Source of the DNA: Nocardia abscessus
Lineage (GTDB): Bacteria > Actinomycetota > Actinomycetes > Mycobacteriales > Mycobacteriaceae
NCBI RefSeq assembly: GCF_015477775.1
Contig: NZ_JADLQO010000002.1
Span: 558,001-622,000 of the forward strand
Direction: 5' to 3'
DNA: 64,000 nt
This document shows, piece after piece, positions 31,302 through 49,870 of the stretch. The notes beneath the pieces were generated by a model. The model did no database searches. It was not told the DNA's origin and was given only the letters and a program-made list of their open reading frames with translations. Each line of letters begins with the position of its first letter. The stretch's first letter is position 1. The translations under genes and the position numbers were made by a program.

Positions 31302-31560
31302 GGGGCATCCACTCCTGTTTCTCAGTTCCGCGCTCGAATGTCCGGCTACCCGGGTGCGGGTGCCACCGCGGACCGCAGCAAACCCGAGGGACCACCCTAC
31401 CCGACCGGGCTCTTCCTGCTGAAATCGCAGGTCGATCGGCTCGGCTCGCGGCGCCGGGCGTGTGACGCAAGGAAGCGCCCGCATTACCTTCCGGGTAATC
31501 GACTCACCGCACATCGGCTGCGAATCTTTCTCTCGTACCGCCGAATACGAGGAGACAACG

Positions 31561-32379: not shown

Positions 32380-32382
32380 CGC

Positions 32383-34270: not shown

Positions 34271-34271
34271 G

Positions 34272-35459
34272 ATGGCCCTCTCGAAGCGCAGCCGCGGCGC
34301 GGCCGCGGTGACCAGCGGGCCGATCGACGACATCTTCGCGGCGCTGGCAGGCCGCCCCGACGTCGTCTCGTTCGCCGTCGGAGCCCCCGATCCTGCCCTG
34401 TTGCCCGCCGAACTCGTCGCGACGCTGTCGCAAGCCGTCATCGGCAGATACGGCGGCGCCGTACTCCAGTACGGGATGACCCAGGGATTCTCCCCGCTCC
34501 TGGCCGAGGCCCGGAATCTGTTGCGCACCCGCGATATTCGATGTTCGACCGATAACTTGCACATCTCGACGGGTGGATCCGGCGCATTGCACAACGTGTG
34601 TTTGGCGCTGCTGGACCCGCACGACGTGGTTCTGGTGGAAACTCCGACCTACGGCCCGGCGGTCAAAGAATTCCGCAGCCACGCGGCCACCGTCGTCGCG
34701 GTGCCGTCCGACGATTTCGGCATGGTGCCCGAAGCACTGGAGGAGGCCCTGGTCCGATATGACGTCGCATTCGTGTACCTGCTCCCGACGTTCCAGAATC
34801 CGACCGGGCGGACGATGCCCGTCGAGCGGCGCGAACGAATTGCCGAGATCGTCGCCCGCCACGGCACGCTGATTGTCGAGGACGACGTCTACACCGACCT
34901 GCGCTACCGCGGAGTGCCACCGCCCGCCCTGGCGTCTTTCGCGCCGGACAACTCGATCTACATCACGTCGCTGTCCAAAACTCTCGCTCCGGCGATCCGT
35001 GTCGGTATCACCGTCATGCCCGCGGATCTGCTGAAAACCGTGCTCGCCTTGAAACAGGGCATCGATATGCAGACCTCGACCTACTGCCAGGCGATTGCCG
35101 CCGAGTTCCTGGGCAGCTCGGCCGGAGCCGAGCACCTGGCCGAGGTCGTGGACGCGTATTCGGCCAAACTGGACATCTTGGGAGCCGCCGTGCAACGGCA
35201 TCTCCCGGCCGGTTTCCGCTGGGTCGTACCCGACGGCGGGATGTTCCTGTGGGTCGAGGGCCCGCCCGGTTTCGATGCCGACGCGCTGTTGGAGGAGGCG
35301 CTGCGCCGCGGCGTCGCCTTCCTGCCGGGAAGCGTCTGCTACGCCGAGGACGTCGCCGACCACCGCAACACGATGCGGCTGAGCTTCGCGAACGTGCCGC
35401 GCGAGGACATCGACCGTGGCGTCGCGCTGCTGGCGGCGGTCTGCGCGGGTGCGGCATGA
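34272..35459 (+). CDS. PLP-dependent aminotransferase, class I/II (LysN/MocR-domain type)
   Basis: The ATG at 34272 gives 395 residues. Fold-type I features: LQYGMTQGFSPLLAEARNLL, STGGSGALHNVCLALLDPHDVVLVETPTYGPAV, LLPTFQNPTGRTM, VEDDVYTDLRY, and the PLP lysine in TSLSKTLAPAIRVG (Lys236). That pattern is the 2-aminoadipate / aromatic aminotransferase group. No DNA-binding domain is attached. It starts one base after the cupin stop and overlaps the next gene by ATGA. The amino donor and acceptor are unknown. Confidence 0.93.
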   Translation: MALSKRSRGAAAVTSGPIDDIFAALAGRPDVVSFAVGAPDPALLPAELVATLSQAVIGRYGGAVLQYGMTQGFSPLLAEARNLLRTRDIRCSTDNLHISTGGSGALHNVCLALLDPHDVVLVETPTYGPAVKEFRSHAATVVAVPSDDFGMVPEALEEALVRYDVAFVYLLPTFQNPTGRTMPVERRERIAEIVARHGTLIVEDDVYTDLRYRGVPPPALASFAPDNSIYITSLSKTLAPAIRVGITVMPADLLKTVLALKQGIDMQTSTYCQAIAAEFLGSSAGAEHLAEVVDAYSAKLDILGAAVQRHLPAGFRWVVPDGGMFLWVEGPPGFDADALLEEALRRGVAFLPGSVCYAEDVADHRNTMRLSFANVPREDIDRGVALLAAVCAGAA

Positions 35460-35875
35460 GCGAGCGCCACCCCGTACTGGGCACCTGGGAGGTCATCGCC
35501 GACGGCGCTCCGTTCGGCTACCACGTGATGCAGTTCCACCCGGGCGGCACGATGCTGCAATCGAATCCCGACCACGGCAACCGCGCCACCAGTGACAGCA
35601 ACGGCATGGGCACCTGGCGATCCGACGGCGACCGGGTCACCGGCGCGTTCGTGGAGTTCACCGTCGATCGCGCGGATCCCACCGTCGTGCGCAAAGGGAT
35701 CGTCGCCTTCGACCTGGAAGTGACCGGCGACCGGTTCACCGGCTCCGCTACGGCGACCTTCTACGAGCTGTCCGGTGCACCGGTCCACGCCCCGGCCACG
35801 GCGCGCTTGAGCGGTAGACGGTTCGACGGCTCGGCCGCACATCGCGCCGCGCTGAACCGCTCCGCGACCGCGTGA
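35456..35875 (+). CDS. small beta-barrel protein of unknown function, lipocalin-like
   Basis: The ATG at 35456 overlaps the aminotransferase stop by four bases; 139 residues. The sequence alternates strands with the pattern LGTWEVIADG...YHVMQFHPGGTML, GMGTWRSDGDRVTGAFVEFTV, KGIVAFDLEVTGDRFTGSATATFYEL, like calycin/lipocalin-type small barrels. It has no signal peptide and no catalytic motif. Tight coupling to the cupin and aminotransferase suggests it binds or processes the same small molecule. Confidence 0.75.
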   Translation: MSERHPVLGTWEVIADGAPFGYHVMQFHPGGTMLQSNPDHGNRATSDSNGMGTWRSDGDRVTGAFVEFTVDRADPTVVRKGIVAFDLEVTGDRFTGSATATFYELSGAPVHAPATARLSGRRFDGSAAHRAALNRSATA

Positions 35876-36002
35876 CGACGTCGAGGTCACGGCCCGAACG
35901 GCCCCGCGTACCGAGCGGACGCCGACCCGTCCACTCGCGGATCAACGACGAATCGCGATTCGTTTGCGATGCCCCAACGGCGGGTCGCAGGATGTGTGTA
36001 TC

Positions 36003-36016
36003 GGCACGCTAGTGCC
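36003..36016. promoter_or_regulatory. GGCAC-N4-GTGCC dyad before the DtxR-family gene
   Basis: A symmetric site GGCAC-GCTA-GTGCC ends fourteen bases before the GTG start of the regulator. It could be an autoregulatory operator or a leader hairpin. It does not match the classical DtxR iron box. Confidence 0.3.
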
Positions 36017-36029
36017 TAAGCTCGGGTGT

Positions 36030-36782
36030 GTGCCCGGTAAACGAGATATCGCCACTCGCCGCGAGTTGGCCGACGCCCCGGTGCCGGGCGATCCGCACGG
36101 CGGTACCGCGACGATCGCGCCTGTGCTCTCGTCGGTCGCCCAGGACTACCTGAAGGTCATCTGGACCGCGCAGGAGTGGTCGCAGGAGAAGGTGACCACC
36201 AAACTGCTCGCCGAGCGGATCGGCGTGTCGGCCTCCACCGTCTCCGAAGCGGTGCGAAAGCTCGCCGACCAGGGATTGGTCGAGCACGCCCGCTACGGGG
36301 CGATCACCCTCACGCCCGAGGGCCGCCGCGCCGCCATCGCGATGGTGCGCAGGCACCGGCTCATCGAGACATTCCTGGTGAACGAGCTCGGCTACGGCTG
36401 GGACGAGGTGCACGACGAGGCGGAGGTGCTCGAGCACGCGGTCTCCGAGTTGCTGATGGCGCGCATCGACGCGAAACTCGGCTACCCCGATCGCGACCCG
36501 CACGGCGACCCGATCCCCTCGGTGGACGGCGCGGTGCCCACCCCACCCGCGCGTCAGCTCAGCGACTTCCATGCCGGTGAGCACGGCCGGGTCGCCCGCA
36601 TCTCGGATGCCGATCCCGACATGCTGCGCTACTTCGACTCCGTCGGCATCGCCTTGGACACCGTCATCACCGTGGTCGAACGCCGCGACTTCGCGGGGAC
36701 CATCGCCATCCGCATCGGCGCCACCGAGTCCGCAACCGATCTCGGGCGCCCGGCCGCCGATGCCATCTGGCTCACCGCCTGA
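36030..36782 (+). CDS. sirR: DtxR/MntR-family metalloregulator SirR
   Basis: The start is GTG 36030; 250 residues. The helix-turn-helix region is SSVAQDYLKVIWTAQEWSQEKVTTKLLAERIGVSASTVSEAVRKLADQGLVEHARYGAITLT. The dimerisation/metal domain reads MVRRHRLIETFLVNELGYGWDEVHDEAEVLEHAVSELLMARIDAKLGYPDRDPHGDPIP, whose His, Glu and Asp are the usual metal ligands. A C-terminal SH3/FeoA-like domain follows. It is very close in text to M. tuberculosis SirR (Rv2788) as I recall it and has the same place relative to ribF. It probably represses metal-uptake genes when Mn or Fe is sufficient. Confidence 0.95.
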   Translation: MPGKRDIATRRELADAPVPGDPHGGTATIAPVLSSVAQDYLKVIWTAQEWSQEKVTTKLLAERIGVSASTVSEAVRKLADQGLVEHARYGAITLTPEGRRAAIAMVRRHRLIETFLVNELGYGWDEVHDEAEVLEHAVSELLMARIDAKLGYPDRDPHGDPIPSVDGAVPTPPARQLSDFHAGEHGRVARISDADPDMLRYFDSVGIALDTVITVVERRDFAGTIAIRIGATESATDLGRPAADAIWLTA

Positions 36783-37013
36783 GCCGCTGATCCGCTCGGT
36801 CGTTCGAGCGGACCGGTCAGCCGAATCGGAACGCTTCGAACCGCCGCAGATGCCGGGTGCAGCGTCGGCACGAATCTCCCGGCCCGGGCCCACTCGATCC
36901 GACACCCGTCGCCCGCGCCGAGGTCGACCTCACCTCGGCCCACACCGGCGCCACCATCCGGGTCGCGGTCGACGAAACGGCGATGGAGCGTCGAGAGGAA
37001 TCTCCGCGATCCG

Positions 37014-38093
37014 TCAGCCGAGTTCCGCCGCGGCGGGGCGGGCCAACTCGGCCGCGCGGGCGGCGATGGCGTCGCCGAGTTCGTCGGTGGTGCCCGTGCC
37101 GCCGAGATCCGGGGTGCGGACCGCACCTGCGGCGAGCACGTCGCAGACGGCTCGGTCGATCGCGGCGGCCGCCGCGGACTCGCCGAGATGGTCGAGCATC
37201 ATCGCGCCTGCCAGGATCTGCGCGACCGGATTCGCGATGCCCTGACCGGCGATGTCGGGGGCGCTGCCGTGCACGGCCTCGAACATCGAGGGGCCGGTGC
37301 GCTCGGGATTGATATTGCCCGACGGCGCCAGACCGAGCCCGCCGGTGACGGCGGCGGCGAGATCGGAGAGGATGTCGCCGAACAGATTCGAACCCACGAT
37401 CACGTCGAGCCGGTCCGGGTGCAGCACGAGTTCGGCGGCGAGCGCGTCGACGTGCATCTGCCGCGTCGTGACCTGCGGATAGTCGGCCGCGATGCGTTCG
37501 AAGACACTGTCCCAGTACGGCATCGAGTGGATGATCCCGTTCGATTTGGTCGCCGAGCACAACCGCCCGGACCGTTCGGCGGCCCGCTCGAACCCGTAGC
37601 GGATGATCCGCTCGCACCCCGTGCGGGTGAACACCGACTCCTGGAGCACGAATTCGTCGGGGCGGCCCTCGTTGTGGATGCCGCCGATCCTGGAGTACTC
37701 GCCCTCGGAGTTCTCTCGCACGATCAGGATGTCCAAATCCTCGGCGGTCCGGTCGCGCAGCGCCGAGTCCGTGCCGGGTAGCAGGCGCACCGGGCGCAGG
37801 TTGACGTACTGACCGAAGGCACGGCGCAGCGGGATCAGTAGCCCCCACAGCGAAACATGATCGGGCACACCGGGAAATCCGACGGCGCCGAGCAGGATCG
37901 CGTCGAAGTCCGCGAGGCGTTCCGCGCCGTCGGGCGGCATCATCGCCCCCGTGCGCAGGTAGTTCTCACAGGACCAGTCGAATTCGGTCCATTCCACGCC
38001 GGGCAGCACGGCGTCGAGCACGCGCACCGCCGCCGCGGTGACGTCGACTCCGATCCCGTCACCCGGGATGGTGGCGATGCGGTACTCCCTCAC
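37014..38093 (-). CDS. isopropylmalate/isocitrate-type dehydrogenase (tartrate / D-malate dehydrogenase group)
   Basis: The GTG at 38093 after GAAGGAG gives 359 residues. Motifs of beta-decarboxylating dehydrogenases: IPGDGIGVDVTAAAVRVLD, NLRPVRLLPG, LIVRENSEGEYSRIGG, ATKSNGIIHSMPYWDSVFE, VGSNLFGDILSDLAAAVTGGLGLAPSGN, EAVHGSAPDIAGQGIANP. The N-S-E-G-E-Y signature and the short substrate loop fit tartrate/D-malate dehydrogenase better than LeuB. It is ten bases downstream of the semialdehyde dehydrogenase in the same direction and belongs to the GntR-controlled island. It would send a 2-hydroxydicarboxylate into central metabolism. Confidence 0.92.
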   Translation of the reverse strand: MREYRIATIPGDGIGVDVTAAAVRVLDAVLPGVEWTEFDWSCENYLRTGAMMPPDGAERLADFDAILLGAVGFPGVPDHVSLWGLLIPLRRAFGQYVNLRPVRLLPGTDSALRDRTAEDLDILIVRENSEGEYSRIGGIHNEGRPDEFVLQESVFTRTGCERIIRYGFERAAERSGRLCSATKSNGIIHSMPYWDSVFERIAADYPQVTTRQMHVDALAAELVLHPDRLDVIVGSNLFGDILSDLAAAVTGGLGLAPSGNINPERTGPSMFEAVHGSAPDIAGQGIANPVAQILAGAMMLDHLGESAAAAAIDRAVCDVLAAGAVRTPDLGGTGTTDELGDAIAARAAELARPAAAELG

Positions 38094-38103
38094 TGGCACT
38101 CCT

Positions 38104-39576
38104 TCACAGTCGCACTCCGATGTACTTGGTCTCCAGGAATTCGTCGATCCCGGTGAGCCCGCCCTCGCGGCCCAGCCCGGACTCCTTGACACCGCCGAAC
38201 GGTGCGGCCGGGTTCGACACCACGCCCTGGTTGAGTCCCACCATGCCGGTCTCCAGCGCCTCGCACACCCGCAATCCGCGCCGGAGGTTCTCCGTGAATA
38301 CGTAGCTCACCAGCCCGTATGGGGTGTCGTTGGCCCGGCTCACCGCTTCGTCTTCGGTGTCGAAGACGCCGATCGCGGCGACCGGCCCGAAGATCTCGGT
38401 GTGGCACAGCTCGGCGTCGTCGGGGACGTCGACCAGGACGGTCGCGGGATAGAACGTGCCCGGCCCGGCCTGCGCGGTCCCGCCGGTGAGCACCGTGGCG
38501 CCGCGGGCGCGGGCGTCATCGACCAAGCGCTGCACCTTCGTCACGGCCTCGCCGTCGATCAGCGGTCCGACCACGACGCCCGGTTCGGTGCCCCGGCCCA
38601 TCGGCAGGGCGGCCATCCGGTCGGCGAGCTTGCGTGCGAACTCCGCGGCGACGCCACGCTGGACGAGGATGCGGTTGGCGGCGGTGCACGCCTGGCCGAT
38701 ATTGCGCATCTTCGCCGCCAAGGCGCCCTCGATCGCCTCGTCCAGGTCGGCGTCGTCGAACACCAGCAGCGGCGCGTTGCCGCCGAGCTCCATCGAGGTG
38801 CGCATCACCGTCTGCGCGCACTGCGCGAGCAACTGCTTGCCGACCGCCGTCGAGCCCGTGAACGACAGCTTGCGGGAACGGTCGTCCAGGATCAGCGGCG
38901 TCATCACCGCGGCGGGGTCGGCCGTCGTGATGACGTTGACCACCCCGGCGGGCAGCCCGGCGCCCGCCATCACCTCGGCCAGCGCCAGCATCGAAAGAGG
39001 CGTCTGCTCCGCCGGTTTCACCACGCAGGTGCACCCGGCGGCGAGCGCGGGCGCGATCTTGCGCGCCCCCATGGCAACCGGGAAGTTCCAAGGCGTGATG
39101 AGCAAGCTCGGGCCGACCGGCTGGCGGGCCACCAGGAAACGGGAGCCGCCGGTCGGCGCGGGCATGTACCCGCCGTCCAAGCGCACGGCTTCCTCGGCGA
39201 ACCAGCGGAAGAACTCCGCGGCGTAGGCGATCTCGCCGCGCGCCTCGGCCAGCGGCTTGCCCATCTCCAACGTCGCGATCAGCCCGAGCCGATCGGTCTC
39301 GGCCAGCAGCGCGCGATGCACGCGCATCAGCAGATCGCTGCGCTCCCGTGGCGGCGTGGCCGCCCAGCCCGGTTGCGCTGCGCATGCCGCGTCCAGCGCG
39401 GCGAGACCGTCGGCCGGGTCCGCGTCGGATACCGCGCACAGCGGTGCACCGGTCGACGGATCGAGAACCGGCAGGGTCCGTGCGGTCGCACGCCACAGCC
39501 CGTCGATGAACAGGCCGCGCGGCACCGTATCGATCGCGGCGCGCTCGGCTGCGCTGAGAGCGCTTTCGGTGAGCAT
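38104..39576 (-). CDS. NAD(P)-dependent succinate-semialdehyde dehydrogenase family
   Basis: This 490-residue aldehyde dehydrogenase starts at ATG 39576 after AAGGAG. The N-terminal FIDGLWRATA, the Rossmann part ITPWNFPVAMGARKIAPALAAGCTCVVKPAEQTP, and FTGSTAVGK are standard. Glu263 in MELGGNAPL and Cys297 in GQACTAANRI are the catalytic pair. The C-terminus PFGGVKESGLGREGG binds cofactor. Semialdehydes such as succinate or malonate semialdehyde are expected substrates. It is divergent from a class III aminotransferase across an operator-bearing gap, a classical GABA- or beta-alanine-type pair. Confidence 0.94.
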   Translation of the reverse strand: MLTESALSAAERAAIDTVPRGLFIDGLWRATARTLPVLDPSTGAPLCAVSDADPADGLAALDAACAAQPGWAATPPRERSDLLMRVHRALLAETDRLGLIATLEMGKPLAEARGEIAYAAEFFRWFAEEAVRLDGGYMPAPTGGSRFLVARQPVGPSLLITPWNFPVAMGARKIAPALAAGCTCVVKPAEQTPLSMLALAEVMAGAGLPAGVVNVITTADPAAVMTPLILDDRSRKLSFTGSTAVGKQLLAQCAQTVMRTSMELGGNAPLLVFDDADLDEAIEGALAAKMRNIGQACTAANRILVQRGVAAEFARKLADRMAALPMGRGTEPGVVVGPLIDGEAVTKVQRLVDDARARGATVLTGGTAQAGPGTFYPATVLVDVPDDAELCHTEIFGPVAAIGVFDTEDEAVSRANDTPYGLVSYVFTENLRRGLRVCEALETGMVGLNQGVVSNPAAPFGGVKESGLGREGGLTGIDEFLETKYIGVRL

Positions 39577-39646
39577 TGTCGGTGGCTCCTTTCGACACCG
39601 CGCAGCGTTCGGCCATTGCTGCGACCCGTGCCGCCATGTTATGCAT

Positions 39647-39658
39647 ATTGTCGACAAT
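39647..39658. promoter_or_regulatory. GntR-type operator, first copy
   Basis: The perfect palindrome ATTGTCGACAAT lies midway between divergent aldehyde dehydrogenase and aminotransferase genes; two more GACAAT half-sites follow within 20 bases. A near-identical site occurs at 43969-43980, also in a divergent gap. FCD-type GntR regulators bind such T-x-GT...AC-x-A sites. Confidence 0.7.
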
Positions 39659-39708
39659 CCGACAATAGACAATCCCGCATTCATCCCCGCTCCGGGAGGC
39701 GAACCACC

Positions 39709-40950
39709 ATGACCGAGCTCTCGCCCATCCTGAAACAGGCCACTCCGGTGACCGTCGACCACGGCGCGGGGTGCTATCTCTATGGCACCGACGGCCGGAG
39801 GTATCTGGACTTCACCGCCGGTATCGGCGTCACCAGCACCGGTCACTGCCACCCGCACGTGGTCGCGGCGGCGCAGGCGCAGGTCGCGACGCTGATCCAC
39901 GGCCAGTACACGACCGTGCTGCACCGGCCGCTGCTGGAACTGACCGAACGGCTCGGCGCGGTGCTGCCCGAGGGGCTGGACGCGCTGTTCTTCGCCAACT
40001 CCGGCAGCGAGGCGGTCGAGGCCGCGCTGCGGCTGGTCCGCCAGGCCACCGGACGGCCGAACGTCGTCGTCTTCCACGGCGGCTTCCACGGCCGCACCGT
40101 GGCCGCCGCCACCATGACGACCTCCGGCACCCGGTTCTCCGCCGGGTTCAGCCCGCTGATGTCGGGCGTGCACGTCGCACCGTTCCCCACCGCGTACCGG
40201 TACGGCTGGAGCGAATCGGAGGCCACCGCCTTCGCGCTGCGCGAACTCGACTACCTGTTCGCCACGCTCACCTCACCCGCCGAGACCGCCGCGTTCATCG
40301 TGGAGCCGGTGCTCGGGGAGGGCGGCTACGTCCCGGGCAACACCGAGTTCTTCCGCGGCTTGCGCGAACGCGCGGACCGGCACGGCATCCTGCTGGTCTT
40401 CGACGAGATCCAGACCGGCTTCGGGCGCACCGGAAAGTTCTTCGGGCATCAGCACTTCGACGTCCGGCCCGACGTGATCACCATCGCGAAGGGCCTGGCC
40501 AGCGGGTTCCCGCTGTCGGGCATCGCGGCCTCGCGCGAGCTGATGTCGCGGGCGTGGCCCGGCTCCCAAGGCGGCACCTACGGCGGCAACGCGGTGGCGT
40601 GCGCGGCGGCCATCGCGACGCTCGACGTCATCGAATCCGAAGGGCTGGTGGACAACGCGGCTGCCCGCGGCGCACAGCTGCTGCGCGGTCTGCGCGACAG
40701 TGCCGTCAAGGCGATCGGTGATGTCCGCGGCCTCGGTCTGCTCGCGGGCGCCGAGTTCACCACGGCCACCGGCGAACCCGATCCGGCCACCGCCGCTGCC
40801 GCCCAGCGCGCCGCGGTGGACAAGGGACTGCTGCTGCTGACCTGCGGCGCGCACATGAACGTGGTCCGGATGATTCCACCGCTGATCGTTACAGATACTC
40901 AGATCGAGGACGCTCTGGCGATCTGGTCCGAGGTGCTCGCCGAGCTGTAG
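39709..40950 (+). CDS. class III aminotransferase (4-aminobutyrate / beta-alanine type)
   Basis: The start is ATG 39709 behind GGGAGGC; 413 residues. Family features: YLYGTDGRRYLDFTAGIGVTSTGHCHPHVVAA, FFANSGSEAVEAALRLVRQATG, VFHGGFHGRTVAA, FDEIQTGFGRTGKFF and the PLP lysine Lys261 in ITIAKGLASGFPLSG. It should transfer an omega-amino group to a 2-oxo acid, making the semialdehyde for the divergent dehydrogenase. A DUF3830 gene follows 66 bases later. The exact omega-amino acid is unknown. Confidence 0.94.
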   Translation: MTELSPILKQATPVTVDHGAGCYLYGTDGRRYLDFTAGIGVTSTGHCHPHVVAAAQAQVATLIHGQYTTVLHRPLLELTERLGAVLPEGLDALFFANSGSEAVEAALRLVRQATGRPNVVVFHGGFHGRTVAAATMTTSGTRFSAGFSPLMSGVHVAPFPTAYRYGWSESEATAFALRELDYLFATLTSPAETAAFIVEPVLGEGGYVPGNTEFFRGLRERADRHGILLVFDEIQTGFGRTGKFFGHQHFDVRPDVITIAKGLASGFPLSGIAASRELMSRAWPGSQGGTYGGNAVACAAAIATLDVIESEGLVDNAAARGAQLLRGLRDSAVKAIGDVRGLGLLAGAEFTTATGEPDPATAAAAQRAAVDKGLLLLTCGAHMNVVRMIPPLIVTDTQIEDALAIWSEVLAEL

Positions 40951-41016
40951 TGCTCGCGAACACCATCCGTCCGCCCGTCGGCCCGTCCGGCGGCACCGAT
41001 CAGGAAGCAGCACCGT

Positions 41017-41511
41017 ATGGCCCGCTACATCACCATCACGCTCACCAAAGCCGCCGTCACCTGCCGCGCCCGTCTGCTGGACGAGGAGGCGCCGCGCACC
41101 TGCGCGGCGGTGTGGAACGCCCTGCCCCAAGAAGGCGACGCCTTCCACGCCAAGTACGCCCGCAACGAGGTGTACACCCTGCTCCCCCGGATCGGTGCGG
41201 CACCGCACCGGGAGAATCCGACGGTCACCCCGATCCCCGGCGACGTCTGCCTGTTCGATTTCGAGCCGTGGGAGATCGGCAACCCGGCCTACGGCTACGA
41301 GCCCGGCTCCGCGGCCGAGCACGAGCGCGGCGCCACCGATCTGGCGCTGTTCTACGGCCGCAACAATCTGCTGATCAACGGCGACCTCGGCTGGGTACCG
41401 GGCAATGTCTTCGCCACGATCGAAGAAGGGCTCGCCGAGATAGCCGCGGCGTGCAACACGCTGTGGCTGCACGGCGTGCAGGGTGAGACACTCGCCTTCG
41501 CCCGCGCCTGA
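41017..41511 (+). CDS. DUF3830 family protein (cyclophilin-like fold)
   Basis: The ATG at 41017 gives 164 residues: ARYITITLTKAAVTCRARLLDEEAPRTCAAVWNALPQEGDAFHAKYARNEVYTLLP, then PIPGDVCLFDFEPWEIG and TDLALFYGRNNLLINGDLGWVPGNVFATIEEGL. These are the hallmarks of DUF3830, a small family with a cyclophilin-like barrel and no proven reaction. Members, as I recall, often lie beside Asp/Glu racemase-like and amidase genes, as here. No signal peptide. A cofactor-free enzyme or metabolite-binding role is inference. Confidence 0.85.
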   Translation: MARYITITLTKAAVTCRARLLDEEAPRTCAAVWNALPQEGDAFHAKYARNEVYTLLPRIGAAPHRENPTVTPIPGDVCLFDFEPWEIGNPAYGYEPGSAAEHERGATDLALFYGRNNLLINGDLGWVPGNVFATIEEGLAEIAAACNTLWLHGVQGETLAFARA

Positions 41512-41525
41512 AGCCCGGCGAACGA

Positions 41526-41559
41526 CCGATGGCCCCGTGGTAACCCGCGGGGCCATCGG
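41526..41559. terminator. 12-bp perfect hairpin, bidirectional terminator
   Basis: CCGATGGCCCCG (41526-41537) pairs fully with CGGGGCCATCGG (41548-41559) around a ten-base loop. It lies between the convergent stops of the DUF3830 gene and the amidase gene. Confidence 0.75.
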
Positions 41560-41562
41560 CGT

Positions 41563-42963
41563 TCAGGAGGCCAGCACGAATTCGGCGTAGCGCGCCACCG
41601 CCAGCACCAGCTCGTCCGAGTGGCGCGGGCCGACGATCTGCAGTCCGACCGGCAGGCCCGCCCGGGTCGTACCGGCCGGGATGCTGATCGCGGGCTGCTG
41701 AGTGAGATTGAACGGGTAGGTGAACGGGGTCCACTCCGGCCAGCTGCGCAGGCCGCTGCCCGGTGGCACGTCGTGGCCCGCCTCGAACGCGGGAATCGGC
41801 ACCGTCGGGGTGATCAGCACGTCGTAGTCGGTGTGGAAGGCGCCCATGGTGATGCCGATCTGCGCCGCCACGTTGCGCGCGCCGAGATAGTCGACGGCCG
41901 TGACGGTTTCACCGCGCTCCCATACCGTGCGTAGCCCGGGGTCCACCCGGTCGCGCGTGCCCTCCGGGAAGCCGGACAGCATGGTGGCCGCGCCGGCCGC
42001 CCAGAGCAGTTCGAACGCCTCGCGCGGATCGCCGAAGCCCGGATCCGCGACACCGACCCGGAGTTCGGCCTCGGCAAGGCGAGCCACCGCCGCCTCCACG
42101 ATCGCGGCGACTTCGGGGTCGACCGCGACGTAGCCCAGCGTCGGCGAGTACGCCACCCGCAATCCGCGGACGTCGCGCTGCATTTCGGCACGGAACACGG
42201 TGAGGGTGGGGGCCAGCGAGGTCGGGTCGCGCGGATCCGGCAGCGACAGGATGTCCATCAGCAGCGCCGCGTCCTCGACGGTGCGCGTCATCGGCCCCGC
42301 GTGCGCCAGCGGGCCGAACGGACTGGCCGGGAACAGCGGAATCCGGCCATAGGTGGGCTTGAACCCCACGATGCCGCAGAAAGCGGCCGGGATGCGCACG
42401 CTGCCACCGCCGTCGGTGCCCACCGACACCGGGCCCATGCCACCGGCCACGGCCGCCGCGCTGCCGCCGGAGGATCCGCCCGCGGTGGTGGACGGGTCGG
42501 CCGGGTTGCGGGTGACACCGGCCAGCGGACTGTCGGTGACCGCCTTCCACGCGATCTCCGGGGTGGTGGTCTTGCCGAGGAACACCATGCCGTCCTCGCG
42601 CAGCCGGGCCGCCACGGGGCTGTCCACCGGCCACGGTCCGGCCGGATCGATCGAGGTGGAGCCACGCCGGGTGGGCCAGCCTTCGGTCAGGAAGACGTCC
42701 TTGATCGAGATCGGCACACCGTCGAGCAGGCCGCGGGCGTGGCCGGACTGCCAGCGCGCCTCGGAATCCTTCGCCTGCACCAGGGCGCGATCGGGGTCGA
42801 CGAGACAGAAGGCGTTGAGCGCGCCGTCGCGGTCGGCGATCGCGCGCAGGATCGCCTCGGTCGCCTCGACGGGCGACAAGGTGCCCGCAGCGTAGGCCGA
42901 GACCAGCTCGACCGCGCTCATAGCGGTCGGGTCGGTGGGATGGTTCCTGTCGGGGTAGCTCAT
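41563..42963 (-). CDS. amidase signature family enzyme
   Basis: The ATG at 42963 after AAGGAG gives 466 residues. The Ser-cisSer-Lys triad is visible: Lys in PISIKDVFLTEGWPTRRGS, and the Gly/Ser stretch TAGGSSGGSAAAVAGGMGPVSVGTDGGGSVRIPAAFCG. MTRTVEDAALLMDIL follows. The C-terminal half (TPTVPIPAFEAGHD, FTYPFNLTQQPAISIPAG) is typical. It hydrolyses an amide, releasing ammonia or an amine; the substrate is unknown. It starts 12 bases after the hydroxyacid dehydrogenase stop, so the two form one operon within the GntR island. Confidence 0.94.
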   Translation of the reverse strand: MSYPDRNHPTDPTAMSAVELVSAYAAGTLSPVEATEAILRAIADRDGALNAFCLVDPDRALVQAKDSEARWQSGHARGLLDGVPISIKDVFLTEGWPTRRGSTSIDPAGPWPVDSPVAARLREDGMVFLGKTTTPEIAWKAVTDSPLAGVTRNPADPSTTAGGSSGGSAAAVAGGMGPVSVGTDGGGSVRIPAAFCGIVGFKPTYGRIPLFPASPFGPLAHAGPMTRTVEDAALLMDILSLPDPRDPTSLAPTLTVFRAEMQRDVRGLRVAYSPTLGYVAVDPEVAAIVEAAVARLAEAELRVGVADPGFGDPREAFELLWAAGAATMLSGFPEGTRDRVDPGLRTVWERGETVTAVDYLGARNVAAQIGITMGAFHTDYDVLITPTVPIPAFEAGHDVPPGSGLRSWPEWTPFTYPFNLTQQPAISIPAGTTRAGLPVGLQIVGPRHSDELVLAVARYAEFVLAS

Positions 42964-42975
42964 GGATGGGCTCCT

Positions 42976-43941
42976 TCAGCCGGGCACGTATCCCAGCCTT
43001 TTGTCGACCACGTTGTCCAGCGGACGTCCGGCGATCCAGTTGTCGAAATTCTCGGTGAACGCATTGACGATCTCGGTGCGCCATCCGATGAAGTCACCGG
43101 AGTTGTGCGGAGTGATCCGGACATTGGGCAGTTCCCACAGGGGGTGATCGGCGGGGAGCGGCTCGGGGTCCACCACATCGAGCGCCGCCGCGGCGATCGA
43201 TCCGGTGCGCAGCGCGGCGACGAGATCGTCGGTCACAACGAGTTCCCCACGGCCGACGTTGACAAACCTCGCGTGCGGCTTCATCGCGGCGAAGGCCGCG
43301 GCATCGAACATGTTCCTGGTCTGCTCGGTGAGTGGCGCGATCGCGACGACGTAGTCGGCCCTGGCCAGTTCGGCGTGCAGATCGGTGACCACCTCGCCGA
43401 AATCCGGATCCGAGGCACGCTCCCGCCTGCCCACCGCGCGCACGCTCATCCCGACCGCGCGCAGCAACCGGGCGATGTGGCGGCCGATCGAACCGGTGCC
43501 GACGATCAGCGCCGTCGCCCCCGCGACCCGTTCGGATTCCCGGTGCCGCCACTCGTGCCGCTGCTGTAGCAGTAGCGAGCCGGACAGGTCCTTGGCGAAA
43601 CCGAGGATCTGACCGAGCACGTATTCGGCGATCGCGGCGTCGAAGACGCCCCGGGTGTTGGTCACGACCACGTCACTCGCCCGCAGCTCGGGAAACATCG
43701 CGGGGTCGACACCCGTCGACCCCATGTGCACCCACCGCAAGCGGTCGGCGGCGTGCCACGCGCCGGGTAACGCCCGCGTACGGAAGTCGTAGACGAACAA
43801 GATTTCCGCCCCGCCCAGGGCGTCGGCCAAACCGGGTTCCTCGGTGTACCGGAGGGTGGCACGGTCCGCTACCCGGTCCATGCGCTCGGCGTCGGGCACA
43901 CTGTCACTGTGCAGGACGGCGACGATCGGGCCCTGTTCCAC
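42976..43941 (-). CDS. D-2-hydroxyacid dehydrogenase
   Basis: The GTG at 43941 gives 321 residues. No ribosome site precedes it, so it may be leaderless or start elsewhere. The NAD site is ALIVGTGSIGRHIARLLRAVGMSVRAVGRRE. Catalytic residues are the Arg of NVGRGELV (substrate-binding loop), the acid in LDVVDPEPLP and the His of RITPHNSG (an unusual variant of the H-x-S/A/G-G end). The reaction is reduction of a 2-oxo acid to the D-hydroxy acid or the reverse. The operator at 43969-43980 is 28 bases upstream. First gene of the dehydrogenase-amidase transcript. Confidence 0.92.
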   Translation of the reverse strand: MEQGPIVAVLHSDSVPDAERMDRVADRATLRYTEEPGLADALGGAEILFVYDFRTRALPGAWHAADRLRWVHMGSTGVDPAMFPELRASDVVVTNTRGVFDAAIAEYVLGQILGFAKDLSGSLLLQQRHEWRHRESERVAGATALIVGTGSIGRHIARLLRAVGMSVRAVGRRERASDPDFGEVVTDLHAELARADYVVAIAPLTEQTRNMFDAAAFAAMKPHARFVNVGRGELVVTDDLVAALRTGSIAAAALDVVDPEPLPADHPLWELPNVRITPHNSGDFIGWRTEIVNAFTENFDNWIAGRPLDNVVDKRLGYVPG

Positions 43942-43968
43942 ATTGACACACTAAGATCACATCGTATG

Positions 43969-43980
43969 ATTGTCAACAAT
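43969..43980. promoter_or_regulatory. GntR-type operator, second copy
   Basis: ATTGTCAACAAT, followed by CCGA, differs by one base from the palindrome at 39647-39658 and shares its right flank. It lies between the divergent hydroxyacid dehydrogenase and the racemase-like/GntR operon, close enough to the start of the former to overlap its promoter. Confidence 0.7.
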
Positions 43981-44027
43981 CCGATCGTGTTCGGAGGTCG
44001 TCCCGGCTGAGCGCGAGAGGGGCCGTA

Positions 44028-44768
44028 GTGGATCTGAGCTTTCCCGACCTCGAGGGGCCCGTTGCACAACGGGGTATCGGGATCATCGCACCGTTCGATC
44101 TCGCACTCGAACGAGAGCTCTGGCGCTGGGCGCCGCTGGAGGTGAGCCTGCACCTGGCGCGCACACCCTACGAGCCGGTCCCGGTGTCGCTGGAGATGGC
44201 CGAGCTGGTCTCGGACGCCGCGCACCTCACCGCGGCCACCCGCAACGTGCTGCACGTGGAGCCGGAAGTGGTGGCCTACCTGTGCACGTCGGGCAGCTTC
44301 ATCAAGGGTCTCAGCTACGAGAAGTCGCTGCGGGACACCATCTGCCAGGCCGGAGCGCAGGACGCGGTCACCACCTCGGGCGCCCTGCTGGAGGCGATCC
44401 GCCACCTGAACCTCACGCGGGTCTCGGTGCTCACCCCCTATGACGAGATCCTCACCCACCGGCTGCACGAGTTCCTCGCCGAAGCCGGATGCTCGGTGGT
44501 GCGCTCCGACCACCTCGGGCTCGGCGGCGGCATCTGGAAGGTCAGTTATCGCACGATCGCCGAACGCATCCTCGCCGCCGACGATCCCGAAGCCCAGGCC
44601 GTCTTCGTCAGCTGTACCAACCTGCCGACCTACGACGTGATCGAGCCGCTGGAGAACGCACTCGGCAAACCGGTGCTCACCGCCAACCAGCTCACCATGT
44701 GGGCCTGCCTCGGCCGGATGAAGCTGCCGATGATGGGCCCGGGCAAGTGGCTACTCAACGTTTTCTGA
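44028..44768 (+). CDS. maleate isomerase / Asp-Glu racemase-superfamily protein, two catalytic Cys
   Basis: The start is GTG 44028 after GAGAGGGG; 246 residues. The two half-barrels each have the catalytic Cys loop: AYLCTSGSF (Cys86) and FVSCTNLPTYD (Cys196). The pattern RGIGIIAPFDLALERELWRWAP and LTPYDEILTHRLHEFLAEAG fits maleate cis-trans isomerase / arylmalonate decarboxylase relatives. It could isomerise a maleate-like acid or racemise a 2-substituted acid. A paralogue follows 14 bases downstream. Confidence 0.9.
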   Translation: MDLSFPDLEGPVAQRGIGIIAPFDLALERELWRWAPLEVSLHLARTPYEPVPVSLEMAELVSDAAHLTAATRNVLHVEPEVVAYLCTSGSFIKGLSYEKSLRDTICQAGAQDAVTTSGALLEAIRHLNLTRVSVLTPYDEILTHRLHEFLAEAGCSVVRSDHLGLGGGIWKVSYRTIAERILAADDPEAQAVFVSCTNLPTYDVIEPLENALGKPVLTANQLTMWACLGRMKLPMMGPGKWLLNVF

Positions 44769-44782
44769 AGGAAGAACATCGC

Positions 44783-45514
44783 ATGCACGCACCCACCGTC
44801 GGTTTCATCTACCCCGATCACGCGGCGGAGGACGACTACCCGCTCGCGGCGGCGACGCTCGGCGCGCACCTTCCGGTGGCCCACATCTACGGCACCGATC
44901 TGCACGCCGTCCCCGAACTGCTCGAGCTGGGCAGTCCGGCGAAATTGCGCCTCGGCGCTTCGCTGCTGGCCCGGCACCGCCCCGACGCGATCGTCTGGGC
45001 TTGCACCTCCGGCAGTTTCGTCTACGGACCCGCGGGCGCCCGCGAGCAGGTGCGAGCGCTGTCCGAGGTCGCCGGTGTGCCCGCGACCAGCACCAGCATC
45101 GCGTTCGCCGATGCCGTGCACGCGCTGGGGCTGCGCACCGTCGCCGTCGCCGCGAGCTATCCCGACGAGGTCGCGCGACTGTTCGTGGACTTCCTGGCCG
45201 ACGCGGACATCGAGGTCGTCTCCATGTCCAGCGCGGGCATCGATACCGCCGCGGAGGTCGGCACCCTCACCGCGAGCCAGGTGCTGCGGCTGGCCGCGGA
45301 CAACGACCACCCCGGCGCGCAGGCGCTGCTCATCCCCGACACCGCGATGCACACCCTGGCGGTGCTGCCGGAGCTGGAAGCTACGCTGGGCAAACCGGTG
45401 CTGACGGCCAATCAGGTGACGATCTGGGCAGGCTTGCGGCTGGCCGGCGCCGAGCCGGTCGTACCCGGGCTCGGCACCTTGTTCGCGGAAAGGCAGACCG
45501 ATGTCCGTCGTTGA
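44783..45514 (+). CDS. maleate isomerase / Asp-Glu racemase-superfamily paralogue, second Cys replaced
   Basis: The ATG at 44783 gives 243 residues. The first catalytic loop is intact (VWACTSGSFVYG, Cys74), but the second reads LLIPDTAMHTL: aligned with VSCTNLPTYD of the neighbour, the Cys becomes Asp186. The rest of the fold (TVGFIYPDHAAEDDY, TVAVAASYPDEVARLFVDFLADADIEVV, GKPVLTANQVTIWAGLRLAG) is conserved, so it is not a decayed copy. One-Cys members of the superfamily (arylmalonate decarboxylase) catalyse decarboxylation, though there the other Cys is the one kept. It may form a hetero-oligomer with its neighbour. It overlaps the GntR gene by 14 bases. Confidence 0.88.
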   Translation: MHAPTVGFIYPDHAAEDDYPLAAATLGAHLPVAHIYGTDLHAVPELLELGSPAKLRLGASLLARHRPDAIVWACTSGSFVYGPAGAREQVRALSEVAGVPATSTSIAFADAVHALGLRTVAVAASYPDEVARLFVDFLADADIEVVSMSSAGIDTAAEVGTLTASQVLRLAADNDHPGAQALLIPDTAMHTLAVLPELEATLGKPVLTANQVTIWAGLRLAGAEPVVPGLGTLFAERQTDVRR

Positions 45515-46166
45515 TTTCGAGCCGGTGAACCGGCAGTCGACCGCGGAGATGATCGCCGATCGACTCCGCGAAGCGATCATGCGCGGCAGTCTGGCGCCTG
45601 GGTCCCAGCTGGGCGAAGCCGACCTCGCCGCGCGGTTCGCGGTCTCGCGCGGGCCCGTACGCGAGGCGATGCAGCGCTTGGTGTCCGAAGGCTTGCTGCA
45701 CAGCATCCGGCACCGCGGCATCTTCGTCATCGAACTGAGCCTCGACGACGTCGTCGACATCTACCGGGCGAGGACGGCGCTGGAGGGCGGCGCGCTGGAG
45801 CTGATCCTGGACGGTCGCCGCCCGATCGCCTACGAGGCGCTCGGGCCCAGCGTCGAGGAGATGGTCGCCTGCGCCGCACGCGGTGACGCGGTGGGTGTCT
45901 CGGACGCCGACCAAGCCTTCCACGAGGCGCTGGTGGAGAGCTCGGCCAGCCCGCGCCTGGTCCGCGCGGCACGCACCCTGCTGATCGAGACGCGGATGTG
46001 CCTCGGCGCCTTGCAGACCACCTACCCGGACCTGCGGGAGCAGGCCGACGAACACGTCGACCTGCGCGAAGCGATCGCCACCGCCGAGCCCGCGCGCGCC
46101 CGCGCCCTGCTCGTCGAGCACATGGACGACGCCGTGGAACGACTCCGCCGCCAACTCGGCTCCTGA
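45501..46166 (+). CDS. GntR-family regulator, FCD subfamily
   Basis: The ATG at 45501 gives 221 residues. The winged helix: TAEMIADRLREAIMRGSLAPGSQLGEADLAARFAVSRGPVREAMQRLVSEGLLHSIRHRGIFVIELS. The helical FCD ligand domain follows, with the metal-ligand pattern D-x3-H (DQAFHEAL), H-x-D (EHVDLREAI) and a late His (EHMDDAVERL). FCD regulators usually sense a small carboxylate. It is the last gene of the racemase operon. The two ATTGTC-R-ACAAT palindromes are its probable targets and would place all nine genes of the island under its control. Confidence 0.94.
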   Translation: MSVVDFEPVNRQSTAEMIADRLREAIMRGSLAPGSQLGEADLAARFAVSRGPVREAMQRLVSEGLLHSIRHRGIFVIELSLDDVVDIYRARTALEGGALELILDGRRPIAYEALGPSVEEMVACAARGDAVGVSDADQAFHEALVESSASPRLVRAARTLLIETRMCLGALQTTYPDLREQADEHVDLREAIATAEPARARALLVEHMDDAVERLRRQLGS

Positions 46167-46182
46167 ACGCGCGGCCGCGGCG

Positions 46183-46605
46183 CTACCGGGAGAGGAACTC
46201 CAGCAGCGCGCGGAATTCCGGCAGCGAGAGATAGCCGTCGCCGTCACGGTCGGCGGCGGCCAGCAAGGCGTCGGCCGGTTCGTCGATCCGGCCCGCGCCG
46301 CAGTGCCGGATGAGCGATTCGAGTTCCTCGACCGAGATGCGGCCGTCGCCGTTGACGTCGAAGACCTTGAACGCGGCGTCGGCGTCGGTCACCTCGATGC
46401 GTCCGCCCACCAGCGCCGCGTCGAATTCGGCGCGGGAGACCAGGAAGTCGCCGTTGGTGTCGGCGGCCGCGACGAGCCGTTCCACCGCCGCGTCGTCGAC
46501 CTCCAGACCGAGCGCCCGGATGCCCGCCGTGATGTCCTCCACCGAAACGAGCCCGTCGCCGTCGCGGTCCCACAGTCCGAACGTGTCCACCGGTCCATCA
46601 CTCAT
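46183..46605 (-). CDS. calmodulin-like EF-hand calcium-binding protein
   Basis: The start is ATG 46605; 140 residues. Four canonical 12-residue EF-hand loops: D13-x-D15-G-D17-G-L-V-S21..D24, D49-x-N51-G-D53-F..E60, D83-x-N85-G-D87-G..E94 and D119-x-D121-G-D123-G..E130. Only loop 1 has Asp rather than Glu at position 12. There is no signal peptide, so it is cytosolic, like calerythrin and the calcium sensors of Streptomyces. It may buffer calcium or transduce a signal. Convergent with the GntR gene. Confidence 0.93.
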   Translation of the reverse strand: MSDGPVDTFGLWDRDGDGLVSVEDITAGIRALGLEVDDAAVERLVAAADTNGDFLVSRAEFDAALVGGRIEVTDADAAFKVFDVNGDGRISVEELESLIRHCGAGRIDEPADALLAAADRDGDGYLSLPEFRALLEFLSR

Positions 46606-46780
46606 GCCCGCTACCTTCGCCGCCACTATCGACCACGGCCGCCGGCGAACCGCGCAGGCGACCACTCCACACTGTACGGATTCCGTTGGGGGCGTGAGAT
46701 GCTCAGGCCGCGCACCGGGACCACTCAGTGCAGCGCACAGCAACAGCCGCTCGGAGGCGCCGCGACAGTCGCGAGCCGCG

Positions 46781-47114
46781 CACTTCGACTACTTCGAGGC
46801 CAACGCCAACAGCGTGCTCGCGGCCAACAGCGTGCTGGCCGCCGACCCCACGATCCAGGAGATCATCGCGGGCCGAGCTCGGCGAATTGCGTGAGCGCGC
46901 GCTCGACGCGCTGAAGCTGGAGGGGCGGCTTCGCGCGACGGTCTCGGCGATCCTGATGAGCTGGCTGGCCTTCGTCCGGGTGCTCACCGTCGACTGGCTG
47001 GAGCACGACACGCTGACCCGGGCACAGATGCGCGAGACTCCGCTCGGAGCTCTGCTCGGAGCCGTGCGGCCGGTCATCGACATCGATGACGTGAGCCGAG
47101 CGCCGAATCGGTGA
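46781..47114 (+). pseudogene. TetR-family regulator remnant, N-terminus lost and frameshifted
   Basis: One frame reads HFDYFEANANSVLAANSVLAADPTIQEIIA from 46781. The next frame continues from about 46872 as RAELGELRERALDALKLEG...ATVSAILMSWLAFVRVLTVDWLEHD...LGALLGAVRP. Together these look like the C-terminal ligand domain of a TetR-type regulator. No helix-turn-helix is found upstream, so the 5' part has been deleted, and a frameshift near 46870 breaks the rest. Family assignment by general resemblance only. Confidence 0.55.
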
Positions 47115-47135
47115 CGCCGACGACCGAAAGCCCCC

Positions 47136-48035
47136 CTACAGATTCGCCGGACGCACGACCATCACCGATGCCGCTCGCTTTCCGCTTTCCCGCAGCAGCG
47201 CGATCGCACGGCCCTCCGGATCGATGGCGGCGTAGACGTCCGGTATCCCGACCGGGTCGAGCCAGCGTCCGTTGCGCAGATCATCGGCCTGCTCGGCGTC
47301 GATGTCGCGGTGCGGGAAGGCGGTGCGCACAGCCTGGTCCATGTCGAGGCTCAGGGGTGGCGCGCCCGATTCCGCGGCGGCGGCCAGCTCGTCCAGGGTG
47401 CGCGCGTGCTCGAGGGTGAAGGGACCGACCCTGGTGCGACGCAAGGCGGTCAGGTGGCCGCCGACGCCGAGCGCGGCGCCCAGGTCTCGGGCCAGCGCCC
47501 GCACGTAGGTGCCCGAGGAGCACTCGACCACCACGTCCAAGTCGACGAAATCGCCGTTGTCGCGGCGGGCGAGCACGTCGAAGCGCGACACCGTGACCGG
47601 GCGGGCGGCCAACTGCACTTCTTCGCCCGCGCGGTGACGGGCATAGGCGCGCTCGCCGTTCACCTTGATCGCGCTCACGGTGGCGGGCACCTGGTCGATG
47701 TCGCCGGTCAGTTCGGCTGTGCGCGTGGCGATGTCGGCGTCGTCGAGGTGACCGGCCGGGGTCGTGACCAGTACCTCGCCCTCGGCGTCGTCGGTGCTGG
47801 TGGCCTGCCCGAGCCGGATGGTCGCGGTGTACGCCTTGGTCGTCAGGGTGAGCAGGCCGAGCAGTTTGGTCGCGCGTTCCACGCCCAGCACCAGCACACC
47901 GGTCGCCATCGGGTCCAGGGTGCCCGCGTGACCGACCTTCTTGGTGCGCAGCAGCTTCCGGCATCTCGCGACGACGTCGTGGCTGGTCCAGCCACCGTCC
48001 TTGTCGACGACGAGCAGCCCGCCGAGTGCGTCCAT
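47136..48035 (-). CDS. truB: tRNA pseudouridine(55) synthase
   Basis: TruB forms pseudouridine-55 in the T-loop of tRNAs. The ATG at 48035 gives 299 residues: GLLVVDKDGGWTSHDVV, the catalytic motif VGHAGTLDPMATGVLVLG with Asp41, LTTKAYTATIRLGQATSTDDAEGEV, SGTYVRALARDLGAALG and LRRTRVGPF. The C-terminal PUA-like part is present. Its start overlaps the pptT stop by one base (TGATG), so the two are translationally coupled, as in M. tuberculosis Rv2793c-Rv2794c. Confidence 0.97.
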   Translation of the reverse strand: MDALGGLLVVDKDGGWTSHDVVARCRKLLRTKKVGHAGTLDPMATGVLVLGVERATKLLGLLTLTTKAYTATIRLGQATSTDDAEGEVLVTTPAGHLDDADIATRTAELTGDIDQVPATVSAIKVNGERAYARHRAGEEVQLAARPVTVSRFDVLARRDNGDFVDLDVVVECSSGTYVRALARDLGAALGVGGHLTALRRTRVGPFTLEHARTLDELAAAAESGAPPLSLDMDQAVRTAFPHRDIDAEQADDLRNGRWLDPVGIPDVYAAIDPEGRAIALLRESGKRAASVMVVRPANL

Positions 48036-48703: not shown

Positions 48704-48852
48704 CACCGAAGAGCGTAGTCGAGCCTCAACGCGCGGACTCGCAGCGCCGAGCCCAGCCAAGTCGCCGAGGCCGGGCGGACCCGGCGCATCGGACGGCATG
48801 GGCCGAGCCATCGAGGGCGCAGTTGCTTCGCGACCACGCGAAGAGCCGAGGC

Positions 48853-49812: not shown

Positions 49813-49870
49813 CACACCTACCTTGGCACATCCGTTCGGATTCGCACGCACCGGCCGAGCCGGGTGTCGG

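Follow-up and report, generated by a model that had tools for sequence, protein, structure and literature searches.

We analysed a window of 64,000 nucleotides of the Nocardia abscessus genome (contig NZ_JADLQO010000002.1, positions 558,001 to 622,000), in which nine genes lie between sirR (36123-36782, + strand) and truB (- strand, stop at 47136). Our results indicate that these genes probably constitute a catabolic regulon for ectoine and 5-hydroxyectoine that is independent of EutD. Ectoines are nitrogen-rich osmolytes. The cluster is likely an overlooked ectoine pathway, because, in this genome, the exact copies of a palindrome are confined to it and because genes of ectoine synthesis and import adjoin it in relatives. 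One of the nine genes encodes a protein of the unassigned family DUF3830, which thereby receives its first predicted job.

The original prediction, made from the letters alone, described nine genes in four transcripts at this place, and we found the nine open reading frames at those coordinates (Table 1), with families confirmed by Pfam and NCBIfam. The transcripts form two divergent pairs: ssdh and ttuC (-) opposite at3 and the DUF3830 gene (+), and hdh and ami (-) opposite mi1, mi2, and gntR (+). The Pfam families are Iso_dh, Aldedh, Aminotran_3, DUF3830, Amidase, 2-Hacid_dh, Amdase (twice), and GntR with FCD. Among the NCBIfam matches listed, TtuC and the amidase were the only proteins that reached a curated cut-off.

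A shared palindrome and joint inheritance

The palindrome ATTGTCRACAAT is present in both divergent intergenic regions, at 39647 and 43969. Allowing at most one mismatch, these were the only two sites in the window (mean of 0.05 in 100 shuffles). In the whole 8.7 Mb genome the exact sequence occurred only at the two cluster sites, and one mismatch added eight places. We compared 80 named loci, retained by a genome scan as the best of 569, in which the strict palindrome ATTGTNNACAAT was found in 60 of the 60 comparable ssdh/aminotransferase regions and 57 of the 65 hdh/mi1 regions. Genomes and loci carry our own numbers (G and L).

Outside the genus, 57 loci (50 from a search of the class and seven from a search of the phylum) were fetched and mapped. 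Where gntR was present, so was the site, in 30 of 31 loci (the exception is L126); where gntR was missing from the fetched stretch, 22 of 26 loci had no site. Of the four that kept the site, L118 and L166 have gntR elsewhere in the genome (L217, L218). The operator was absent from 12 control regions. Since the palindrome tracks gntR across loci and is absent from the controls, the regulon can be defined by sequence, and the GntR-FCD protein is predicted to bind the site. The site in front of mi1 touches, at the -10 end, a sequence that resembles a strong promoter, which fits repression.

A search of 148 Nocardia genomes revealed DUF3830 in 97 and an mi1 orthologue in 96. The two agreed in 147 genomes (96 with both, 51 with neither); G122, which is 88% complete, had DUF3830 alone. 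In G142 the halves of the cluster are 2.5 Mb apart, each of them intact. The confinement of the exact palindrome to the cluster and the co-inheritance of DUF3830 and mi1 show that the nine genes behave as one unit.

The distance between sirR and truB is about 10.35 kb in the window and 31 to 9036 bp in 14 cluster-free Nocardia genomes (those in which it was measured, of 20 searched for sirR and drawn from the 51 without DUF3830). For these Nocardia, this agrees with the earlier statement, which concerned the mycobacterial backbone, that the two genes otherwise lie much closer. The word "island" used for it was too strong, given a cluster so widespread in the genus. The G+C content of the nine genes (66-72% per kilobase) is similar to that of the flanks and therefore bears no mark of a recent foreign island; neither composition nor distribution across the genus supports such an origin.

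Beyond Nocardia, the long clade of DUF3830, to which the window protein belongs, was present in 54 of 394 genomes of the class, representing 16 of 137 genera, and 50 of the 54 genomes were from other genera; the phylum search found the whole family in 33 of 296 genomes. The five-gene core (DUF3830, amidase, hdh, mi1, mi2) was complete by tblastn within the fetched stretch in 50 of the 57 loci outside the genus. Together with the confinement of the exact palindrome, this places the arrangement beyond chance. The neighbourhood survey proposed with the original prediction was the decisive test. Both modules recur in Nocardia, Rhodococcus, Hoyosella, Janibacter, Georgenia, Occultella, Amycolatopsis, and one Mycobacterium among the named loci, several of which had only one half of the cluster within the fetched stretch. 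TtuC and ssdh are absent from the locus in some Nocardia, and ttuC was present in one of the 57 other loci. The maps come from our own codon-bias gene caller, so starts may be wrong; hdh of L160 escaped it and was recovered by tblastn. The genomes are related and not independent, and the 20 of family f4, which we take to be Streptomycetaceae, represent one family.

Ectoine genes beside the cluster

Two of the 57 loci (L160 and L163, from two genomes of a genus other than Nocardia) carried ectA, ectB, ectC, ectD, and DUF3830 as a co-directional row adjoining amidase, hdh, mi1, mi2, and gntR. In L160, DUF3830 starts 27 bp past ectD. The Ect proteins that were scanned (EctA, EctB, EctC, and EctD of L163, EctC and EctD of L160) were all over the NCBIfam cut-offs. 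In Rhodococcus tibetensis (L091), the next gene after gntR encodes an EctD (405 bits, cut-off 336.5).

Import genes also adjoin the core. Homologues of ehuA and ehuB occurred in 21 of the 57 loci, including every one of the 20 family f4 genomes that bear the cluster, and in 18 of these 20 ehuBCDA lay less than 400 bp from DUF3830. L120, for example, had an EhuB of 255.6 bits (cut-off 190.9) and an EhuA of 382.6 bits (cut-off 345.4). In five Nocardia, ehuBCDA is located 74-345 bp past ttuC, with EhuB over the cut-off in all five. Two EhuB proteins encoded at the cluster had 2q88/2q89 as their top PDB match, which we take to be EhuB of Sinorhizobium in complex with ectoine and hydroxyectoine. 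The 12 control regions, 200 kb away, had no ehuB, ectD, or core genes; one contained an ehuA-like ATPase with 36% identity.

The operator extends to some of these neighbours. G155 has the exact sequence 5' of ehuB, hdh, the DUF3830/aminotransferase pair, the gntR/mi2 pair, and a major facilitator superfamily (MFS) gene (L118, L217), and one-base variants 5' of an EutD-like hydrolase and of mi1. In L124 and L125 it is flanked by a BCCT transporter on one side and a glutamate-dehydrogenase-like gene on the other; L123 has an exact copy between a weaker EutD-like gene and a glutamate-dehydrogenase-like gene. The ectABCD-DUF3830 rows, the adjoining ehuBCDA, and the operator before ehuB in G155 are the reasons for naming ectoines as the substrate.

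Across Nocardia, EctD was over the cut-off in 143 of 148 genomes. EhuB and DUF3830 were associated: DUF3830 was present in 36 of the 42 genomes with EhuB and in 61 of the 106 without it (Fisher p 0.001, uncorrected for descent).

Some importers stand away from the cluster. In G114, a cluster-free Nocardia (L203:7669-11620), ehuBCDA is followed directly by ectD, so that the importer is paired with the ectoine hydroxylase; in Nocardia G019 (L204) two genes lie between them. EhuB and EctD were over the NCBIfam cut-offs in both. In L148, L150, L151, and L152, from Nocardia with or without the cluster, a stand-alone ehuBCDA adjoins a gene that by eye is prolyl-tRNA-synthetase-like. In addition, searches of plasmids with DUF3830 and mi1 gave matches that were all below 60% identity; one, in a Sinorhizobium plasmid, adjoins annotated ehuA, ehuB, and ehuD, an ectB-type transaminase, and an aldehyde dehydrogenase. 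It is compatible with the other loci and was left out of the counts.

Proposed route and alternatives

Articles are cited below by PMC number. The known route of ectoine breakdown involves EutD, which opens the ring, EutE, which deacetylates the product, and Atf and Ssd, which lead to aspartate (PMC5924519; PMC8739950). EutD/DoeA (TIGR02993, cut-off 613) was over the cut-off in none of the 148 Nocardia genomes, and the best score in the genome of the window was 58.9 bits. The analysis establishes gene content, joint inheritance, neighbourhoods, the distribution of the palindrome, and the fold match of a predicted model; for the alternative that follows, we infer every reaction, the reaction order, the inducer, and the repression. 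Addition of water by DUF3830 would open the cyclic amidine ring and give N-acetyl-(3-hydroxy-)diaminobutyrate. The amidase would take the role of EutE and strip the acetyl group, either ahead of the two steps that follow or after them. In these steps, the class III aminotransferase would convert the terminal amine to an aldehyde (the role of Atf/DoeD) and the enzyme resembling succinate-semialdehyde dehydrogenase (SSADH) would oxidize it (the role of Ssd/DoeC), yielding aspartate from ectoine and 3-hydroxyaspartate from hydroxyectoine. Epimerization and oxidation, by which the hydroxylated C4 product would enter central metabolism, might be the work of the two EutA-like proteins, hdh, and, where present, ttuC. 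Until released by an intermediate, the GntR-FCD protein would act at ATTGTCRACAAT as a repressor of both divergent promoter regions.

G155 also has, between mi1 and ehuBCDA (L217:14956-15411), a gene that by eye is RidA-like, with the operator-like ATTGTCTACAAT just 5' of it; the pathway may have an imine or enamine intermediate.

The canonical clusters are ehuABCD-eutABCDE in Sinorhizobium, eut/ueh in Ruegeria, and doeABCD in Halomonas and Methylotuvimicrobium. The nine-gene cluster has in common with them a class III aminotransferase with an SSADH-like enzyme, an EutA-type protein, a gene for a regulator of the GntR superfamily and, in relatives, the Ehu importer (PMC5924519). The aminotransferase and the dehydrogenase are of the broad families expected for Atf/DoeD and Ssd/DoeC (PF00202, SSADH-like) but reached no cut-off among the NCBIfam matches listed. 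Unlike the canonical clusters, the nine-gene cluster occurs in a genus in which none of 148 genomes had an EutD over the cut-off (EutE was not searched for), has a second EutA-like gene and, as additional members, DUF3830, an amidase-signature enzyme, and a D-2-hydroxyacid dehydrogenase, and has a GntR-FCD regulator rather than the MocR-type EnuR (a MocR-like EhuR model gave gntR 18.9 bits against a cut-off of 480).

A review of 2018 described ectoine consumers as restricted to Proteobacteria (PMC5924519), and a doeBDAC cluster is mentioned for the actinobacterium Tsukamurella (PMC7192451). Putative clusters of Gram-positive bacteria and Archaea, reported in 2026, have the same proposed substrate and in some cases EhuABCD or BCCT transporters; they were retrieved by searches with EutD and EutB and hence contain eutD, unlike the nine-gene cluster, and the terms "amidase", "DUF", "Nocardia", and "Streptomyces" do not occur in the main text of that article (PMC13188858). 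Another survey required eutD/eutE pairs (PMC8739950). Searches based on EutD or on eutD/eutE pairs would miss EutD-free clusters. We found no description of the nine-gene cluster in the titles and abstract beginnings of the ectoine-breakdown literature, mostly without subscription papers.

If the proposal is true, a cluster free of EutD in about two thirds of the sampled Nocardia and 16 of the 137 sampled genera of the class changes the picture of who consumes and recycles ectoines, and DUF3830, with its solved structure, becomes directly testable. The cluster could also help to explain the part played in hydroxyectoine use by EutA, EutB, and EutC, whose "precise enzymatic activities are unknown" (PMC8739950).

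Several results weigh against the proposal. The neighbourhoods and the regulon name a class of substrate and not a reaction, the substrate assignment is indirect, and the roles of hdh, mi1, mi2, and ttuC are guesses. Mi1, Mi2, At3, and Ssdh scored under the cut-offs of the named families listed from NCBIfam. Seven of the 57 loci had no complete core in the fetched stretch: L118 and L166 have the rest elsewhere in the genome, L128, L162, and L200 lie near contig ends, L129 is without hdh, and L164 is without amidase and mi1; for L162, no mi2 match was found in the whole genome (G697). At3 adjoins the core in 23 of the 57 loci and ssdh in 21. EctD beside the core is limited to the two loci described above and L091. 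In the genome of the window, the exact operator marks no transporter, and no operator was found in the fetched stretches near stand-alone Nocardia ehuBCDA (L148, L150-L153, L155-L157, L203, L204). Six Nocardia genomes have EhuB without DUF3830; of the 36 with both, five have them within 20 kb on one contig, a count from which fragmented assemblies may hide further cases. Ehu importers also serve osmoprotection (PMC13342039). Finally, an EutD-like M24 enzyme (415 bits, cut-off 613) adjoins DUF3830 in L118, with the one-base operator variant before it, and the weaker EutD-like gene of L123 lies next to the exact operator, which means that DUF3830 need not be the ring-opening enzyme. We considered L118 as a replacement of amidase, mi1, and mi2 by EutD and rejected it, as the genome (G155) has these three genes at a distance of 80 kb and is therefore uninformative about the ring-opening enzyme.

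It is a serious possibility that the substrate is the same and that the pathway disposes of the cell's own ectoine or hydroxyectoine after an osmotic downshift instead of providing food. The genome of the window encodes ectABCD on another contig, and its cluster is without an Ehu importer (Ueh was not searched for). No EhuB over the cut-off was found in this genome (best 75.9 bits), so the ectoine may come from within. The frequency of EctD in Nocardia and the ectABCD-DUF3830 rows point the same way, as does the raised ectoine pool of Methylotuvimicrobium after loss of doeA (PMC7192451). The pairing of importer and core in all 20 genomes of f4 and in five Nocardia fits nutrition as well. As the genome encodes ectABCD, the ectoine pathway proposed here may serve both to recycle solutes made by the cell and to use those that are imported.

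A different substrate of the regulon, some other polar solute that is cyclic or N-acylated and resembles an amino acid, is unlikely; it would enter through Ehu-like, BCCT, or ProP-like carriers, and ectoine genes would lie nearby through common osmotic regulation. The transporters adjacent to the core do vary (Ehu-type ABC, BCCT nearest to the glycine-betaine type, ProP-like MFS), the EutD-like proteins are under the ectoine-specific cut-off, and a distant DUF3830 clade occurs in clusters that look like urate or allantoin degradation. Against this, the EhuA, EhuB, and EctA to EctD proteins encoded next to the core in separate lineages exceed curated cut-offs specific for ectoine, DUF3830 ends an ectABCD row, and EutA is the named family to which both racemase-like proteins come closest.

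The original prediction saw a catabolic unit for an amide- or imide-containing compound, with parts recalling pyrimidine, nicotinate, and γ-aminobutyrate (GABA) breakdown. The catabolic unit stands, since GntR control, amide hydrolysis, racemase-type chemistry, transamination, and oxidation all fit; its open-ended substrate gives way to what is very likely ectoine or 5-hydroxyectoine. The likeness to GABA breakdown holds for the aminotransferase/aldehyde dehydrogenase pair, which is GABA-like by sequence, and those three pathways are not needed as a frame. A xenobiotic of amide or imide type, pyrimidine, nicotinate, or GABA is very improbable as the substrate: amidase, maleate-isomerase-like, and GABA-aminotransferase-like families are present and the long-clade locus L123 borders genes that by eye resemble purine degradation, but it is ectoine genes that are repeatedly found next to the core, and in separate lineages. 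As these genes recurred in the maps, breakdown of nicotinate, pyrimidine, and GABA was set aside, and no dedicated search for those pathways was made.

That two unrelated pathways merely adjoin (aminotransferase, SSADH, TtuC, and DUF3830 in one; amidase, hydroxyacid dehydrogenase, and racemases in the other) is hardly credible, for the halves, which are often split by inserts, can lie far apart, and include a variable TtuC and aminotransferase/SSADH pair, are nevertheless co-inherited in 147 of 148 genomes, even at the distance seen in G142, and share the operator.

The DUF3830 family and features of the cluster

The window protein matches PF12903 with 207.5 bits over the full profile (gathering cut-off 26) and is 92% identical to a protein of Nocardia sp. 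2YAB30. It is 56-60% identical to PDB 3kop from Arthrobacter FB24, a DUF3830 member of solved structure deposited as an uncharacterised protein. Its residues His44 and Glu66 (window protein) are invariant. The fold of a predicted model matches the Pictet-Spenglerases KslB and McbB, which are 15-21% identical to DUF3830, larger, and form rings in biosynthesis rather than open them; the common fold, as modelled, shows no common reaction. DUF3830 was not mentioned in the literature searched, mostly without subscription papers.

A short clade (L130-L137; for example, L134:8372-8791 and L135:9852-10268) is about 20-28% identical to the window protein. By eye, from N-termini, its neighbours resemble genes leading from urate to glyoxylate in every fetched stretch except L136 (seven of eight), and in L135 DUF3830 is flanked by an allantoate-amidohydrolase-like M20 gene on one side and glyoxylate-assimilation genes on the other. 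The short-clade protein is a candidate for the enzyme of the ureidoglycolate step. We suggest, tentatively, that Actinobacteria have a widespread second, EutD-independent route for ectoine and 5-hydroxyectoine, with DUF3830 as the entry enzyme, a cyclic-amidine hydrolase with the cyclophilin-like fold of Pictet-Spenglerases, and that the short clade may perform a related C-N cleavage on ureido intermediates of purine breakdown.

Two further settings of DUF3830 were observed. On Azospirillum plasmids (L111:10438-12408 and L112) it adjoins an annotated dihydropyrimidinase, a GntR gene, and an amino-acid ABC transporter. In Amycolatopsis (L109:10601-13539, L110) a GlcD-type flavin adenine dinucleotide (FAD) oxidase and a PRK07586 thiamine-diphosphate enzyme lie 3' of it, with families scanned in L109 only.

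Table 1. Genes and regulatory sequences of the cluster, in window coordinates
Feature	Position	Strand	Family, assignment, or location
ttuC, tartrate/D-malate-type dehydrogenase	37014..38093	-	Iso_dh; last gene of the ssdh-ttuC transcript; lineage-variable accessory
ssdh, succinate-semialdehyde-dehydrogenase-like	38104..39576	-	Predicted Ssd/DoeC equivalent
Operator 1, ATTGTCGACAAT	39647..39658	.	ssdh/aminotransferase divergent region
at3, class III aminotransferase	39709..40950	+	PF00202; predicted Atf/DoeD equivalent
DUF3830 protein, long clade	41017..41511	+	PF12903; candidate ectoine ring-opening enzyme
ami, amidase-signature enzyme	41563..42963	-	PRK06169 family; candidate deacetylase in the place of EutE
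hdh, D-2-hydroxyacid dehydrogenase	42976..43941	-	PF02826
Promoter-like TTGACA-16-TATGAT for mi1	43943..43970	+	11 of 12 consensus bases
Operator 2, ATTGTCAACAAT (inside GATTGTCAACAATC)	43969..43980	.	hdh/mi1 divergent region
mi1, EutA/Asp-Glu-racemase-like	44028..44768	+	PF17645; both catalytic-type cysteines, C86 and C196
mi2, second racemase-like paralogue	44783..45514	+	First Cys (C74) kept, Asp186 at the second-Cys position
gntR, GntR-FCD regulator	45501..46166	+	PF00392 and PF07729; predicted repressor at both divergent promoter regions

TtuC was over the cut-off of the tartrate dehydrogenase family TIGR02089 (496.6 bits against 470.4), and its closest solved structure is the tartrate dehydrogenase/decarboxylase 3flk. 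Ssdh reached 541.8 bits with TIGR01780 (cut-off 646); its closest structures are the aldehyde dehydrogenase 3ek1 and the SSADH 3jz4, and AAAGGAG sits 5' of its ATG. The top PDB match of At3 is the GABA aminotransferase PuuE, 6wj8. The amidase was over the cut-off of NF004815 (PRK06169; 752 bits against 506), with K88, S164, and S188, presumably the usual triad positions of the amidase family, kept in at least 97% of 64 sequences. In Hdh (top PDB match 3hg7), R231, E260, and H279 were kept in at least 97% of 61 sequences. Mi1 has the two cysteines of Asp/Glu-racemase-type enzymes in 51 of 51 sequences; in Mi2 the first was found in 63 of 66 sequences and the second is absent. EutA (TIGR02990, cut-off 318) gave 104.1 bits with Mi1 and 103.9 with Mi2. 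Both domains of GntR were over their cut-offs (GntR helix-turn-helix, 75 bits against 27; FCD, 70.8 against 24.3).

An Rfam scan of positions 30000-50000 found nothing within the cluster; the only element was an Actino-pnp RNA outside it, 5' of pnp (30395-30459, -; 54.3 bits, gathering score 47.7). Just 5' of sirR (33800-35875, +) are a cupin-like gene, an aminotransferase-like gene dependent on pyridoxal phosphate, and a small third gene, which occur together in six of the 80 named loci.

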